From assembly GCA_949282275.1 (NCBI GenBank), contig CASDOO010000036.1, positions 1 to 43,002 on the forward strand: a DNA stretch of 43,002 nucleotides, in the 5' to 3' direction. The DNA comes from an uncultured Bacillota bacterium (GTDB taxonomy: Bacteria > Bacillota_I > Bacilli_A > RFN20 > CAG-288). Below are positions 26,891 to 32,055 of the stretch, piece by piece. The position numbers were made by a program, and so were the translations under genes. The notes under the pieces are model-generated. The model was not told where the DNA came from. It saw only the letters and a program-made list of their open reading frames with translations, and ran no database searches. Position 1 is the stretch's first letter, and each line of letters starts with the position of its first letter.

Positions 26891-29800
26891 TTAGAACAGC
26901 GTCAGCTGTTCGGAATCCGGAAGATCGCCAAGGGCACCAAGGCGGCGGAAGACTTCGATGGCCTTGTCGCCGATATGGGCTCTCCTCTTGAGATCGTCGA
27001 TGGAAGTGAAAGGCTGCTGTTCCCTTGCCGAGACAATGGCATCGCCAACGGCGGCACCGATTCCGTCGATGCAGGAAATCGCCGGGATGATCTGCTTCTT
27101 CTCCTTGTCGATGGAGAACTTGGTGGAAAGCGAGCGGTTGACGTCGATCCTGCCGAAGGAATAGCCACGATCATACATCTCGATAGTCTGCTCGTAGGCG
27201 TTGACAAGGGCCGTTTCCTTGGTCGTGACCGTTCTCAGCCGCGTCTTTTCCTTGATTTCGTTGAGCTTTCTGAGGCATGGCTGGAGTCCCTTCATCATCG
27301 TCTCGATATCGTAGGCATCGCAGCGCAAGGTGAAATAGGTCGCATAGTAGCTTAGCGGCTCATGGACCTTGAAGTAGGCACAGCGCATGGCCATCATGAC
27401 ATAGGCGACGGCATGGCCTCTCGGGAAGAGGTACTGGATCTTCTCGCAGGAATGGATATAGTAGTCGGGAACGCCGTGCTCCTGCATCAGCTTCGTGTAC
27501 TTTTCCCGCTTTTCCTCGAAGCCGGGCTTGCAGAAGTTGCCCTTTCGAACCGTCTCCATGATCTGGAAGGAGTCGGAATAATCAATCCCGTATTTTTCGT
27601 GGAGTCCGACCATGATGTCGTCACGGCAGGCGATGACTTCCCTCAAAGTCAGGCCGTCCTTGAGGATGAGGTCCTGGGCATTGCCGGCATAGACATCGGT
27701 ACCATGGGAAAGGCCGGAAATGCGGACAAGGTCGGCAAAGGCCCTCGGCTTGGTCTCAAGAAGGGTCCTTCGTCCAGTCTCGGTTCCGAATTCCGGAAGT
27801 CCCAGGGCTCCCGTCTCCTGCTGAAGGACATTGTTCTTGAGATGAAGGGCATCAGGCGACCAGAAAAGGGACAAGGCCTCGGGATCGTTGACCTTGACGC
27901 GGCTATCGATTTCCTTGAAGGAGATATCGCAGTTGTCGCACATCATCTTCACTGCCTGAGGATCGACATGGCCAAGCATATCGAATTTCAGGACGTTGTC
28001 GTGGATGGCATGGAAATCGTAATGGGTCGTCTTCCAGGAGGAATCGACTTCGTCGGCAGGATACTGGACGGGCGTGAAGTCATAGACCTCCATGTCGTCC
28101 GGGATGACGATGACGCCGCCGGGGTGCTGTCCCGTTGTCCTCTTGACCTCCATGCATCCTTGGGCGATTCGGTCGATTTCGGCATTGCGGACCTGTCCGG
28201 TGTCCTTTCCGAGGGATTCGAAATAGCCAAGGACATAGCCTCTGGCATTCTTTTCCTTCGTCGTCTGGATGGTTCCTGCCTTGAAGACGTTCTTTGCGCC
28301 GAGGATTTCCTTGATGTGCTCGTGTGCAATGGATTGGAAATCGGACGGGAAGTTGAGATCGATGTCCGGAACTTTCTCGGCATGGAATCCCAGGAAGGTC
28401 GCGAAAGGAATGTTCTGTCCGTCCCTGTCCATGGGAATATGGCAATGCGGACATTCCTTTTCGGGAAGATCGAATCCGGATTCATACTGGATGACGTCGC
28501 CCCATTCCAGATGGTGGCACTTGGGACAGACATAGTGCGGCGGAAGCGGATTGACCTCGGTAATGCCCGACATCGTGGCAACGAGGGAAGAACCGACGGA
28601 GCCTCTCGATCCGATCATGTAGCCGCATTCGTTGGACCAGCGGACGAGCTTCGAGGAAATCCAGTAGATGACCGAATAGCCGTTCTCGATGATACCCTTC
28701 AGCTCCGTCTCGAGGCGTTCCTGGATTTCCTTCGGAAGCGGATCGCCATACTTCTTCTTTGCCGTCTCGTAAACAAGGTTCGTTAGCATGTCGTCGCAGC
28801 CCGGGATCGAAGGCGGATAAAGTTTGTCCTTTGTCGGACGGACGCTAGGATCGATCATGTCGTTGATCTTCCACGTGTTGTCGATGACGATTTCCTCGAC
28901 AAGTTTCTTGTCGCCAAGGAAGTCAAAGCATTCGATCATCTCATCCGTCGTCCGGAAATGCTGATCCGGATTGGGGAGGGGATTTCGATACCAGTTCTTC
29001 TTCACTTCCTCCCTGGCAGAGTCATAGGGGGCCAGATTGAGGGGATGCCTGGCGCCATGAAGGGCCTTGGAGGCAATGAAGACATCGCGGTAGATCTTGT
29101 CTTCGGGATTGACATAATGGCAATCGCCGGTGGCGACCACCATCTTTCCGATGTCCTTTGCGGCCTTGACGAGATCCTTGAGAATCTGGTAGACCGAATC
29201 CTTGTCGTGGAGGGATCCGCGGTTGACAAGATAGATATAGTTTGCCGGCGGCTGGACCTCGATATAGTCGTAGAACTTCATCGTCTCCTTGAGGATGTCC
29301 TCACCCTTGTTCATGGCATGCTCGAAGACCTCGCCATTGAGGCAGGCCGATCCCACGAGGAGATTCTCGCGCATCTTGGCAAGAAGGGACTTGGGAACGA
29401 TTGGCGTGCCCGAGGAGGACATGTAGTGGACATGGGACTCGCTGATGATCTTGTAAAGATCCTTCAATCCAGCGGCATTCTTGACAAGGACGGTTGCGTG
29501 GTAAGGGTGCATGGAGACAATCATCTTGTCGCTGACTGGAAGATTGGCAAGGTCTTTATGCCGCATGTCCTTCTTTCCTTCCGTCAACTTTGAAAGCATG
29601 ACTTCAAAGATCTTGGCAAGGGTCGAGGCATCGTAGTTTGCCCTATGGGCGCTTGTCTCGTCGAACTCGATTTGCATCTCCCTGGCAATGGCCCCTTCCG
29701 TATGGCTTCTCTTGTCGGGATAGAGATAACGGGAAATAGGCAAGGTATCGATGACAGGGTTCTTGATCTTTCCCATGCCATTGTTCTTAAGCGCCTCGTT

Positions 29801-31228
29801 GAGGAAGCCATAGTCGAAGGCGACGTTGTGTCCGACCAGGATCGAATCGCCAAAGAACTCGAGAATGTCCGCAAGGGCCCTCTTGATTGGCTTTCCGGAA
29901 TCCGCCTGCTCCTGGCTGATATGGCTCTTCTCGATGGAAAACGGGCTCAGCTTCATGTCCGGACGGACAAAGAAGTCGATCTCGTCGAGAATCTGGCCCG
30001 ACTTGTCGACCTTGACCGCGCCGAACTCGATGATTCGGTCATAGCGGGCGGAAAGGCCGGTCGTCTCAAGGTCGAAGATGACATAGGTCTCTTCGTTGAG
30101 GATGCGATCGGAGGGATTGTAAATAAAGGAAGGCTTGTCGTCGACCATGTAGAGCTCGCTTCCATAAATGATCTTCAAACCGGATTTCTTCCCGGCCTTC
30201 TGGGCTTCCGGATAGTCCTGGGCAACGCCATGATCGGTCACGGCGATGGCCGTGTGCCCGAAGCGCTTTGCCGCCTTGCAATAGTCGGCCATGTTCGCAA
30301 GCCCGTCAAAGGCGGACATCTTGGTATGGAGATGAAGCTCGATGCGTTTCCTAGGATAGGTATCCTCCCTTTCCGGATCGGGCGGGAGGATTTCGATATT
30401 GTCGCAAGCAAGGACCAACTCGCCATGGGCAAACTCGTCATGTTCGGGTCGGCCCTGGACCTTGATCCTGACTCCGACGCCGAACTTGTCCATCTCCTCG
30501 GCAGTCATCCTTTTTCCTTCGAACAATGTCGAGGAAATGGAGTCGGACTGATCGGTGTATTCGATCTTGCGGATTCTTCTCCCCTTCTTCGTGACGCGAT
30601 CCTCGACCTTGAAGATCTTGCCTTCGACCAGGACCTTGCGGAAGTTCTCGATGTCCTTGAGCTTGCAAGGCTGATAGGTGCTGTCGATTTCCTTTTGCCT
30701 TCGGAACTTCTCCTCCGCCTCCTTCGACTTGTTCTCGTAGTCCTTGTCCCTTTCCTGGTAGAAGGCATCGGAAGCGAAGAACTTCTCCTGGGTCAGGACC
30801 TTGTAGGAAGAGGAGACGGAATCCAGGAAATCCTTGAGATGTCGGCATTCCTCCTGGATGGCATTGGCCTCGCCTGCGGAAGGATAGTAGAAAAGGACCT
30901 TGTTTTCTTCCTCGAAGAACTGGACGTCGTTGAGAAGGCTTGTCTTCCTGTCGTGCTTGTAGTCCTCAAGCAAATAGGGAAAGCTCTCCCTCTCGGAATC
31001 GTACTCGAAAGAGAGGGCGATGGAAAAGCCGCCCTGAAGGGTAAAGCTATCGCAGGTATCGAAAAGGCACTTGTAGGCAAGGTAGGGAAGATAGGTGGGA
31101 AGCTTTATCCTGGCGACGATGCGGTTGTTCTCCTTGTCGTTTTCGAGTTTCGAAAAGGATCCCTTCTCATAGGGAGAAAGATCCGGTATACCGATTTTCG
31201 TCAGGAAGCGTCCAAGAAGGTTGTCCAT
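26891..31228 (-). CDS. polC: DNA polymerase III alpha subunit, Gram-positive PolC type
   Basis: The 1445-residue replicative polymerase has the PolC domain order. An N-terminal region and OB-fold (to about 290) precede a PHP domain beginning IELHLHTKMSAFDG (about 293). A DEDD 3'-5' proofreading exonuclease starting VIFDLETTGL (about 381) is inserted in it. A zinc-binding region with CPKC and CPHC (about 900-925) is followed by the polymerase core with PDIDLNFPSD (about 958). These features separate it from DnaE. I chose ATG 31226-31228 (MDNLLGRFLTKIG), preceded by GAGGT; an in-frame start 16 codons earlier precedes the ribosome binding site. It is full length. In Bacillus, polC follows proS and rasP; here hsp20 and an ABC transporter lie between it and rseP. 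Confidence 0.97.
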   Translation of the reverse strand: MDNLLGRFLTKIGIPDLSPYEKGSFSKLENDKENNRIVARIKLPTYLPYLAYKCLFDTCDSFTLQGGFSIALSFEYDSERESFPYLLEDYKHDRKTSLLNDVQFFEEENKVLFYYPSAGEANAIQEECRHLKDFLDSVSSSYKVLTQEKFFASDAFYQERDKDYENKSKEAEEKFRRQKEIDSTYQPCKLKDIENFRKVLVEGKIFKVEDRVTKKGRRIRKIEYTDQSDSISSTLFEGKRMTAEEMDKFGVGVRIKVQGRPEHDEFAHGELVLACDNIEILPPDPEREDTYPRKRIELHLHTKMSAFDGLANMADYCKAAKRFGHTAIAVTDHGVAQDYPEAQKAGKKSGLKIIYGSELYMVDDKPSFIYNPSDRILNEETYVIFDLETTGLSARYDRIIEFGAVKVDKSGQILDEIDFFVRPDMKLSPFSIEKSHISQEQADSGKPIKRALADILEFFGDSILVGHNVAFDYGFLNEALKNNGMGKIKNPVIDTLPISRYLYPDKRSHTEGAIAREMQIEFDETSAHRANYDASTLAKIFEVMLSKLTEGKKDMRHKDLANLPVSDKMIVSMHPYHATVLVKNAAGLKDLYKIISESHVHYMSSSGTPIVPKSLLAKMRENLLVGSACLNGEVFEHAMNKGEDILKETMKFYDYIEVQPPANYIYLVNRGSLHDKDSVYQILKDLVKAAKDIGKMVVATGDCHYVNPEDKIYRDVFIASKALHGARHPLNLAPYDSAREEVKKNWYRNPLPNPDQHFRTTDEMIECFDFLGDKKLVEEIVIDNTWKINDMIDPSVRPTKDKLYPPSIPGCDDMLTNLVYETAKKKYGDPLPKEIQERLETELKGIIENGYSVIYWISSKLVRWSNECGYMIGSRGSVGSSLVATMSGITEVNPLPPHYVCPKCHHLEWGDVIQYESGFDLPEKECPHCHIPMDRDGQNIPFATFLGFHAEKVPDIDLNFPSDFQSIAHEHIKEILGAKNVFKAGTIQTTKEKNARGYVLGYFESLGKDTGQVRNAEIDRIAQGCMEVKRTTGQHPGGVIVIPDDMEVYDFTPVQYPADEVDSSWKTTHYDFHAIHDNVLKFDMLGHVDPQAVKMMCDNCDISFKEIDSRVKVNDPEALSLFWSPDALHLKNNVLQQETGALGLPEFGTETGRRTLLETKPRAFADLVRISGLSHGTDVYAGNAQDLILKDGLTLREVIACRDDIMVGLHEKYGIDYSDSFQIMETVRKGNFCKPGFEEKREKYTKLMQEHGVPDYYIHSCEKIQYLFPRGHAVAYVMMAMRCAYFKVHEPLSYYATYFTLRCDAYDIETMMKGLQPCLRKLNEIKEKTRLRTVTTKETALVNAYEQTIEMYDRGYSFGRIDVNRSLSTKFSIDKEKKQIIPAISCIDGIGAAVGDAIVSAREQQPFTSIDDLKRRAHIGDKAIEVFRRLGALGDLPDSEQLTLF

Positions 31229-31262
31229 GCTTTTCACCTCGCCGATAATCTTATATCCATAA

Positions 31263-31268
31263 ATTATA
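31263..31268 (-). promoter_or_regulatory. -10 box for polC
   Basis: A perfect TATAAT on the minus strand lies about 35 bases upstream of the polC start codon. No convincing -35 lies at normal spacing. Confidence 0.5.
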
Positions 31269-31410
31269 TTCTCCACAAAAGAAAGAGCATATTAAAGACT
31301 TGAAATCCCGATCCTCTTCTGTTTTTTGTGTGAGAGAAGAAATATGAATAATTATTTTTTCCGGAATTTTTCGATAGTTATCGCAATATTTCCGAATCGC
31401 AAATTATTTT

Positions 31411-31437
31411 TTAGCACTTGCGCTTGATTTCTGCTAA
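31411..31437 (+). promoter_or_regulatory. second, degenerate CIRCE-like element
   Basis: TTAGCACTT (31411-31419), nine bases, then TTCTGCTAA (31429-31437). The left arm matches the first nine bases of the main CIRCE exactly, and the right arm keeps TGCTAA. Total length is 27 bases, as for CIRCE. It overlaps the hsp20 -35 region and starts 45 bases before the main box. Confidence 0.55.
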
Positions 31438-31451
31438 TTTTGGCTTATACT
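31424..31451 (+). promoter_or_regulatory. promoter of hsp20
   Basis: TTGATT (31424-31429) and TATACT (31446-31451) are 16 bases apart. TACTAT at 31448-31453 is an alternative -10 at 18 bases. The CIRCE box begins right after the -10, the usual layout for HrcA repression. Confidence 0.65.
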
Positions 31452-31455
31452 ATGA

Positions 31456-31482
31456 TTAGCACTTGAGAACGGAGAGTGCTAA
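31456..31482 (+). promoter_or_regulatory. CIRCE element (HrcA binding site)
   Basis: TTAGCACTT, nine bases, GAGTGCTAA: 17 of the 18 arm positions match the CIRCE consensus TTAGCACTC-N9-GAGTGCTAA. It lies between the hsp20 promoter and start codon. HrcA is the heat-shock repressor that binds CIRCE; its gene is not in the window. Confidence 0.93.
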
Positions 31483-31498
31483 ACAGGAGGCAAACACA

Positions 31499-31975
31499 AT
31501 GACCGAAACAAAGACCAACAATATCGCCAAGAAGACGACTGCAGAGAAGAAGGAAAACCTTTCTCCCAGAAGGGAAGCCTATCGTTCCTTCCTATCCCCG
31601 CTCTTCAATTTCTTCGATGACCTTCCGGACTTCCATGATGGCGACTACAACATCATGAAGACCGACATCAAGGATGCGGATGACCATTATGAGCTTGAGA
31701 TGGAGGTTCCCGGAATCGACAAGAAGGACCTGAAGGTCGCCATAAGGAACGGATACCTTGTCGTCAGCGCCGCATTCAACAAGAAGAGCGACGAGAGCAA
31801 GGGCAAGTACATCCATTACGAGAGAGAATCGGGCAGCTTCACCAGAAGCTTCTACGTCGGAGAAGGCCTGAAGACGAAGGATATCTCCGCCAAGATGGAA
31901 AACGGCGTCCTCGTCATCAATGTCCCCAAGGAATCCCCGGAAGAGGACAAGGACGAATTCGTCGAAGTCCTGTGA
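31499..31975 (+). CDS. Hsp20 family small heat-shock protein
   Basis: The 158-residue protein has an alpha-crystallin domain (about residues 50-140) after a Lys/Glu-rich N-terminal arm. Visible motifs are KTDIKDADDHYELEMEVPGI and, near the end, AKMENGVLVINVPK, the GVL motif of small heat-shock proteins. The C-terminal tail is acidic and lacks an obvious IxI anchor. I chose ATG 31499, six bases after AGGAGGC; an in-frame ATG 12 codons earlier lies within the CIRCE box. Control by HrcA is indicated by the CIRCE element. It would act as an ATP-independent holdase in the cytosol. Confidence 0.93.
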   Translation: MTETKTNNIAKKTTAEKKENLSPRREAYRSFLSPLFNFFDDLPDFHDGDYNIMKTDIKDADDHYELEMEVPGIDKKDLKVAIRNGYLVVSAAFNKKSDESKGKYIHYERESGSFTRSFYVGEGLKTKDISAKMENGVLVINVPKESPEEDKDEFVEVL

Positions 31976-31984
31976 TCGCCATCG

Positions 31985-32013
31985 GCCATGGCCTAAACCG
32001 CCATGGCTTTTTT
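31985..32013 (+). terminator. Rho-independent terminator of hsp20
   Basis: GCCATGGC (31985-31992) and GCCATGGC (32000-32007) form an 8-bp stem with a 7-base loop, followed by six T. It starts ten bases after the hsp20 stop. Confidence 0.88.
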
Positions 32014-32055
32014 CTTTTTTGACCGCTTTCCCTTCTTCTGCGCCATTTTTCCCGA

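Follow-up and report, generated by a model that had tools for sequence, protein, structure and literature searches.

The hsp20 locus carries two CIRCE boxes on one promoter

In the window, the whole stretch of 43,002 nucleotides that was analysed, a gene encoding a 158-aa Hsp20 protein lies behind an intergenic region bordered on its left by a divergent gene for a PolC-type DNA polymerase III. The features of this region are the following, with the two CIRCE boxes called U (upstream) and D (downstream):

26891-31276, minus strand: PolC-type DNA polymerase III gene (PF07733, PF00929, PF02811), divergent, left border of the intergenic region
31411-31437, plus strand: upstream CIRCE-like box (U box), left arm 31411-31419 and right arm 31429-31437, 4 mismatches in 18 positions, predicted to span -47 to -21
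31424-31429, plus strand: -35-like hexamer TTGATT from the promoter scan, weak when taken alone, inside the U box from its position 14
31446-31451, plus strand: -10-like hexamer TATACT from the promoter scan, after a 16-bp spacer, ending 4 bp before the D box
31456-31482, plus strand: downstream CIRCE (D box), 1 mismatch in 18 positions, starting 4 bp past the -10, predicted to span -2 to +25
31485-31490, plus strand: Shine-Dalgarno sequence AGGAGG, read in the sequence
31499-31975, plus strand: hsp20 gene, 158 aa (PF00011, E 6.6e-23), the controlled gene
31984-32018, plus strand: terminator-like hairpin with a T tail 3' of hsp20, from a consensus scan only (2 such hairpins in the region against 0.9 expected)

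Both boxes are 9-bp inverted repeats with a 9-bp spacer close to the CIRCE consensus TTAGCACTC-N9-GAGTGCTAA, and hsp20 thus has two CIRCE elements on a single promoter. The D box reads TTAGCACTTGAGAACGGAGAGTGCTAA, the U box TTAGCACTTGCGCTTGATTTCTGCTAA. When up to three mismatches are allowed, the D box is the sole site in the 43-kb window (shuffle mean 0.02), and with up to five mismatches the D and U boxes are still the only ones in its entire length. When the 179 bp of intergenic sequence 5' of the D box were dinucleotide-shuffled 5000 times, a site with at most four mismatches arose in 9 of the shuffles. The first-pass annotation, which had reported a near-perfect CIRCE at 31456-31482 preceded 45 bases upstream by a second 27-base element overlapping the -35, was accurate: the 45 bp are a start-to-start distance, equivalent to an edge-to-edge gap of 18 bp, and TTGATT lies entirely within the U box.

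The location of the -35 inside the U box and of the -10 ending 4 bp before the D box follows from the hexamers as placed by the scan. A sigma-70-type scan alone is weak evidence, with 2 promoter-like sites found against 0.9 expected; the promoter call is supported because its geometry is conserved among relatives (see below), not by its score. Consensus matches and conserved geometry together identify the region as the promoter of a heat-shock gene, with one sigma-70-type hexamer within a box and the other between the two, and the transcription start is predicted near 31458, 7 nt past the -10 hexamer.

HrcA and other CIRCE sites in the same genome

The genome to which the window belongs (G000) encodes the CIRCE-binding repressor HrcA (C35:54654-55295, E 2.1e-40), which shows homology to an HrcA of known structure (1stz, E 5.2e-18). 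At up to three mismatches, CIRCE occurs at three places in this genome, before hsp20, a ClpB gene, and hrcA itself. The hrcA promoter contains a U box fused with its -35, TTAGCACTCATTGCTTGAATTTGCTAA, and, by eye, a second, degenerate palindrome whose arms are 8 bp apart, 4 bp past its TATAAT. On the same strand behind hrcA follow a GrpE-like frame (by eye) and then dnaK (Pfam HSP70). The clpB promoter has a single box with TTGAAA inside, and no second box was found there. The first-pass annotation suggested that doubled CIRCE elements be sought before groES and dnaK: the hrcA-dnaK promoter has a U box plus a degenerate D box, and no groES (Cpn10) gene was found in this assembly, which is ~84% complete and may have it in its missing part. 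Of the 14 further genomes in the genus, 12 have a Cpn10 match.

Across the order the U box varies less than the D box

We classified the promoters of hsp20, hrcA, groES, and clpB in a set of 59 genomes that comprises the window's own and its relatives at the level of genus, family, and order; these relatives are non-independent observations and all counts over them share kinship. The hsp20 gene is present in 42 of the 59 genomes in 45 copies, hrcA was represented by 57 upstream stretches from the 57 genomes with a match, and groES by 34 stretches, two of them from one genome (Cpn10 is found in 33 of 59). For clpB, matched in 52 of 59 genomes, 36 stretches entered the analysis; ClpC-like matches missing their N-terminal region were set aside, as were G016, G021, and G040, the contig end limiting the stretch to 40 bases in the last of these. 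The classifier requires a hexamer that begins with TTG and matches at least four of six positions, and its counts are given as script output with the exceptions seen by eye uncorrected: some 'downstream only' calls look like U boxes with a weak -35 (e.g., hrcA of G011 and G017), and hrcA of G006 and groES of G029, labelled 'U only', look like pairs.

Among the hsp20 copies, 35 have the pair, 5 only the U box, and 5 neither, so that the U box was called in 40 of 45. The hrcA stretches comprise 44 pairs, 11 with the U box only, 2 'downstream only', and none without a box. For groES the corresponding numbers are 6, 24, 2, and 2, and for clpB 14, 14, 4, and 4. In total, of 172 promoters 153 were called with the U box and only 99 with the pair; the U box, fused with the -35, is for this reason the standard operator in the order, and the near-perfect D box is the variable one of the two. 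This reverses the first-pass view of the downstream box as the operator and the upstream one as an add-on. Lack of conservation of the upstream box had been named there as half of what would refute the paired arrangement; the box is conserved, with the pair at 35 of the 45 hsp20 copies.

These hsp20 pairs spread over 14 genera. Within the window's own genus (G000-G014) the pair stands at 15 of 16 hsp20 copies, and no groES or clpB promoter of these genomes was classed as a pair. Of the 10 hsp20 copies classed without a pair, 5 lack any box, and 3 of these (G027b, G047, and G055) seem, from their coordinates, to be later operon genes behind a CIRCE-headed gene.

Each box is anchored to the promoter

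We collected 102 pairs from the order using the rule that both boxes have at most four mismatches, that the step between them is 40-56 bp, and that the -35 is sought at U-box positions 10-18, with the strand set by the gene. The first base of the -35 falls on U-box position 15 in 86 pairs, 14 in 11, and 13 in 5, that is, at positions 13-15 in all 102, and a region-wide promoter search with no position limit put it there in 34 of 35 hsp20 pairs. A 16-bp promoter spacer is present in 89 pairs, and in 97 the D box begins after a gap of 4 bp from the -10. With each box anchored to the promoter in this way, the step from U to D follows from it: 46 bp in 73 pairs, 47 in 12, 45 in 11, 44 in 4, and 48 in 2.

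The two boxes depart from the consensus differently. Mismatches in the U box concentrate at position 19 (97 pairs), followed by 9 (54), 21 (48), 7 (20), and 20 (18), and those of the D box at position 9 (75), followed by 7 (26), 19 (17), 27 (14), and 21 (7), with none at position 20. Of the 102 U boxes, 88 have a TTGACA-like hexamer (at least five of six positions) in the -35 register; none of the 102 D boxes does. The U box yields palindrome positions where the -35 needs them. Just 5' of the U box, the 40-bp stretch of the window (31371-31410) fits poorly an A-rich pattern that is visible over the hsp20 pairs, where columns reach up to 1.6 bits and perhaps correspond to an UP element.

CIRCE pairs beyond the order

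Among 392 genomes of the phylum, 146 contain a pair pattern consisting of both 12-letter arm sets with any gap of 8-38 bp, and none matches its letter-reversed control. A scan of named genomes yielded at least 119 stretches with a pair; the matches listed include Lactobacillus, Ligilactobacillus, Erysipelotrichaceae, Clostridia, and Spiroplasma, together with a handful of remote lineages, among them cyanobacteria and Saccharibacteria. Combining these stretches (at least 119) with 30 loci from the phylum pattern gave a wider set of 148 distinct pairs; for gene names and for the steps in Clostridia, a smaller version was used (80 of the at least 119 stretches plus the 30 loci, 109 distinct pairs). 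The wider set is a non-random sample and overlaps the order set in a few records (e.g., L175, which coincides with G001). Among the matches listed, a TTGACA-like hexamer occurs in 127 of 148 first boxes and 4 of 148 second boxes, a contrast to be read with the strand in mind, which was picked by the best promoter score and so favours a -35 in the first box. The steps of these 148 pairs range from 41 to 64 bp, again among the matches listed, most commonly 46 (40 pairs) and 50 (21 pairs); the listed records titled as Clostridia often have steps of 50-53 bp and a longer distance between -10 and D box (e.g., L117-L120).

The genes behind the pairs of the wider set were named by eye from their first residues. 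Among the matches listed, Pfam identified ClpB, Hsp90, trigger factor, Hsp20, GroEL, GrpE, and GroES behind such pairs, and HrcA lies by position behind pairs of the phylum pattern (e.g., G293 and G395). Seven of eight proteins submitted to Pfam fell into the expected chaperone families; the eighth, a cut-off HrcA-like frame (L126), had no Pfam match at 1e-10. Paired CIRCE elements also precede trigger factor in three Solobacterium metagenome-assembled genomes (L159, with Pfam Trigger_N and Trigger_C, and, by eye, L160 and L195) and htpG in five records (L089, with Pfam HSP90, and, by eye, L091, L099, L108, and L177). In Lactobacillus hamsteri (L154, 6866-6940), a pair with a step of 48 bp and a -35-like TTGCAA in its first box precedes an HrcA-like frame (by eye). 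This pair stands against the statement, in the available text of PMC1676014 (2006), that lactic acid bacteria have a single CIRCE save for the dnaK of L. lactis.

As hrcA was detected in 387 of the 392 genomes, there is little contrast for the co-occurrence of hrcA and CIRCE. The strict pair pattern found no pair in the five genomes without a detected hrcA; at up to three mismatches, three of them have no CIRCE and two have CIRCE-like sites. One of these two contains a pair before hsp20 with a step of 46 bp (G258:C21:20663-20735) in a genome that is 97% complete and in which the letter-reversed control also matched once. The gene may have been missed in assemblies without a detected hrcA, and the G258 pair reflects either a missed contig or an orphan pair. 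The HrcA frames of G169, G184, G203, and G376 contain one in-frame TGA each, consistent with TGA encoding tryptophan there.

Probable repression by two operators, and its alternatives

Judging from the two boxes, their geometry and conserved registers, and the presence of hrcA, HrcA likely represses hsp20 through two operators flanking one sigma-A-type promoter. We infer that HrcA would bind both boxes and that repression would operate by occlusion of the promoter: a dimer on the upstream CIRCE, fused with the -35 hexamer, would exclude RNA polymerase, and a second dimer on the downstream CIRCE, which begins 4 bp past the -10 and extends across the predicted start, would exclude it as well. 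Together they would leave almost no core promoter open, and with so little of it accessible basal hsp20 expression is proposed to stay low until heat inactivates or titrates HrcA, two boxes presumably repressing more tightly than one. In Campylobacter jejuni, according to the part of PMC7464140 available, the region occupied by HrcA measures 30-40 bp at the start site, and the protein is proposed to obstruct the polymerase; with a footprint of that size, two dimers 45 bp apart would span nearly the whole core promoter. Some points count against this best explanation: 10 of the 45 hsp20 copies were classed without the pair, CIRCE-like sites occur in two genomes without a detected hrcA, and the available text of PMC5138195 infers a two-mismatch rule for CIRCE, whereas the U box of the window has four, although U boxes with 3-4 mismatches are retained in 48 of 102 pairs.

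Such footprints would also nearly touch each other, so the two dimers might cooperate by direct contact, making the pair a single switch, in line with the cooperative binding suggested in the first-pass annotation. The prevalence of the 46-bp step (73 of 102 pairs) fits this possibility, which we nevertheless regard as unlikely, as the step changes with the promoter, from 44 to 48 bp in the order and from 41 to 64 bp in the wider set among the matches listed. The DNA helix makes one turn in about 10.5 bp, and the 45 bp of the window, about 4.3 turns, do not correspond to a whole number. In this order, the step varies but 97 of 102 pairs keep a 4-bp gap between the -10 and the D box, which means that the boxes follow the promoter and not each other; cooperative contact, though conceivable, is not called for by these observations.

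That only the D box works and the U box is its decayed duplicate is more doubtful still. The mismatch numbers agree with decay (1 in the D box, 4 in the U box), as does the two-mismatch rule in the accessible part of PMC5138195; conservation leads us to reject it. Across the order it is the U box that is kept more often, being called at 153 of 172 promoters, and it is the sole box at 24 of 34 groES and 14 of 36 clpB promoters. The outer six columns of each of its arms have a mean information content of 1.88-1.96 bits (for the left arm, 1.96 at hsp20 and 1.93 at hrcA), compared with 0.59 (hsp20) and 0.44 (hrcA) in the 40 bp upstream. No core promoter element needs the near-invariant columns of the outer left arm, which approach 2 bits, and the U box is hence conserved both beyond chance and beyond its promoter role.

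We consider it very improbable that the D palindrome acts mainly at the RNA level, as a 5' leader hairpin for stability or translation that would leave the U box as the sole operator. The D box does lie in the predicted 5' leader, with a 7-bp stem ending 4 nt before the Shine-Dalgarno sequence, and the 63-nt stretch folds at -8.6 kcal/mol. This fold is, however, ordinary with respect to shuffled sequences (z -1.57; 17 of 200 fold as well), the D box keeps its distance to the -10 while that to the gene is variable, and its letters follow CIRCE beyond what mere pairing would require. Finally, DNA looping between the paired sites, raised in the first-pass annotation and suited to two palindromic operators for one repressor, can practically be dismissed on spacing and phase, since the 18 bp between the boxes are far below the bending length of DNA, the 45-bp step is not a whole number of turns, and the varying steps maintain no fixed helical phase.

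A proposed composite HrcA operator

The hsp20 promoter is close to the known HrcA/CIRCE systems, with which it shares a TTAGCACTC-N9-GAGTGCTAA palindrome before a heat-shock gene and an hrcA in the genome. These are often described with a single CIRCE at the start or immediately behind it, as in Lactobacillus plantarum groESL and dnaK, where it begins at +4 and +3 (PMC1676014, available text); here there are two, one of them fused with the -35. Doubled CIRCE elements are already known. In the text available of PMC1676014, the dnaK operon of Lactococcus lactis is stated to have two CIRCE overlapping its promoter, although gene and lineage are different and the comparison, made via that paper, concerns CIRCE number alone. 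The L. plantarum hrcA operon also has two CIRCE on one promoter according to the accessible text of PMC3842655, likewise compared by number alone, but a CtsR site is described there too; for the L. plantarum dnaK operon, PMC1676014 reports, in the part available, a single CIRCE. The dnaK and clpB promoters of the Mollicute Spiroplasma melliferum, both heat-shock promoters, have two CIRCE each and are described in the available portion of PMC5138195 as degenerating, whereas the pair analysed here is conserved over many genera. What is added here is a sharply defined architecture. We found no description of a fixed fusion of CIRCE and -35 in the literature searched, which consisted of partial texts, most subscription papers being outside its coverage.

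With somewhat more confidence than doubt, we propose that the default HrcA operator in this order, and probably well beyond it, is the composite TTAGCACT-N6-TTGACA-GTGCTAA, with the -35 within CIRCE, in place of a start-site CIRCE, the latter being an optional second lock fixed 4 bp from the -10. Such an operator would give up position 19 and often 21 of the palindrome and gain a promoter, a clear example of a single sequence used by polymerase and, as predicted, by repressor. With the start-site CIRCE optional, genes of one regulon would be graded by the number and quality of their boxes. The isolated pair becomes part of a testable rule: the place of CIRCE relative to the -35, -10, and +1 may set the tightness of repression for each heat-shock gene. 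Moreover, U boxes with 3-4 mismatches occur in 48 of the 102 pairs, where a two-mismatch cut-off would miss them, and HrcA regulons may consequently be under-called.
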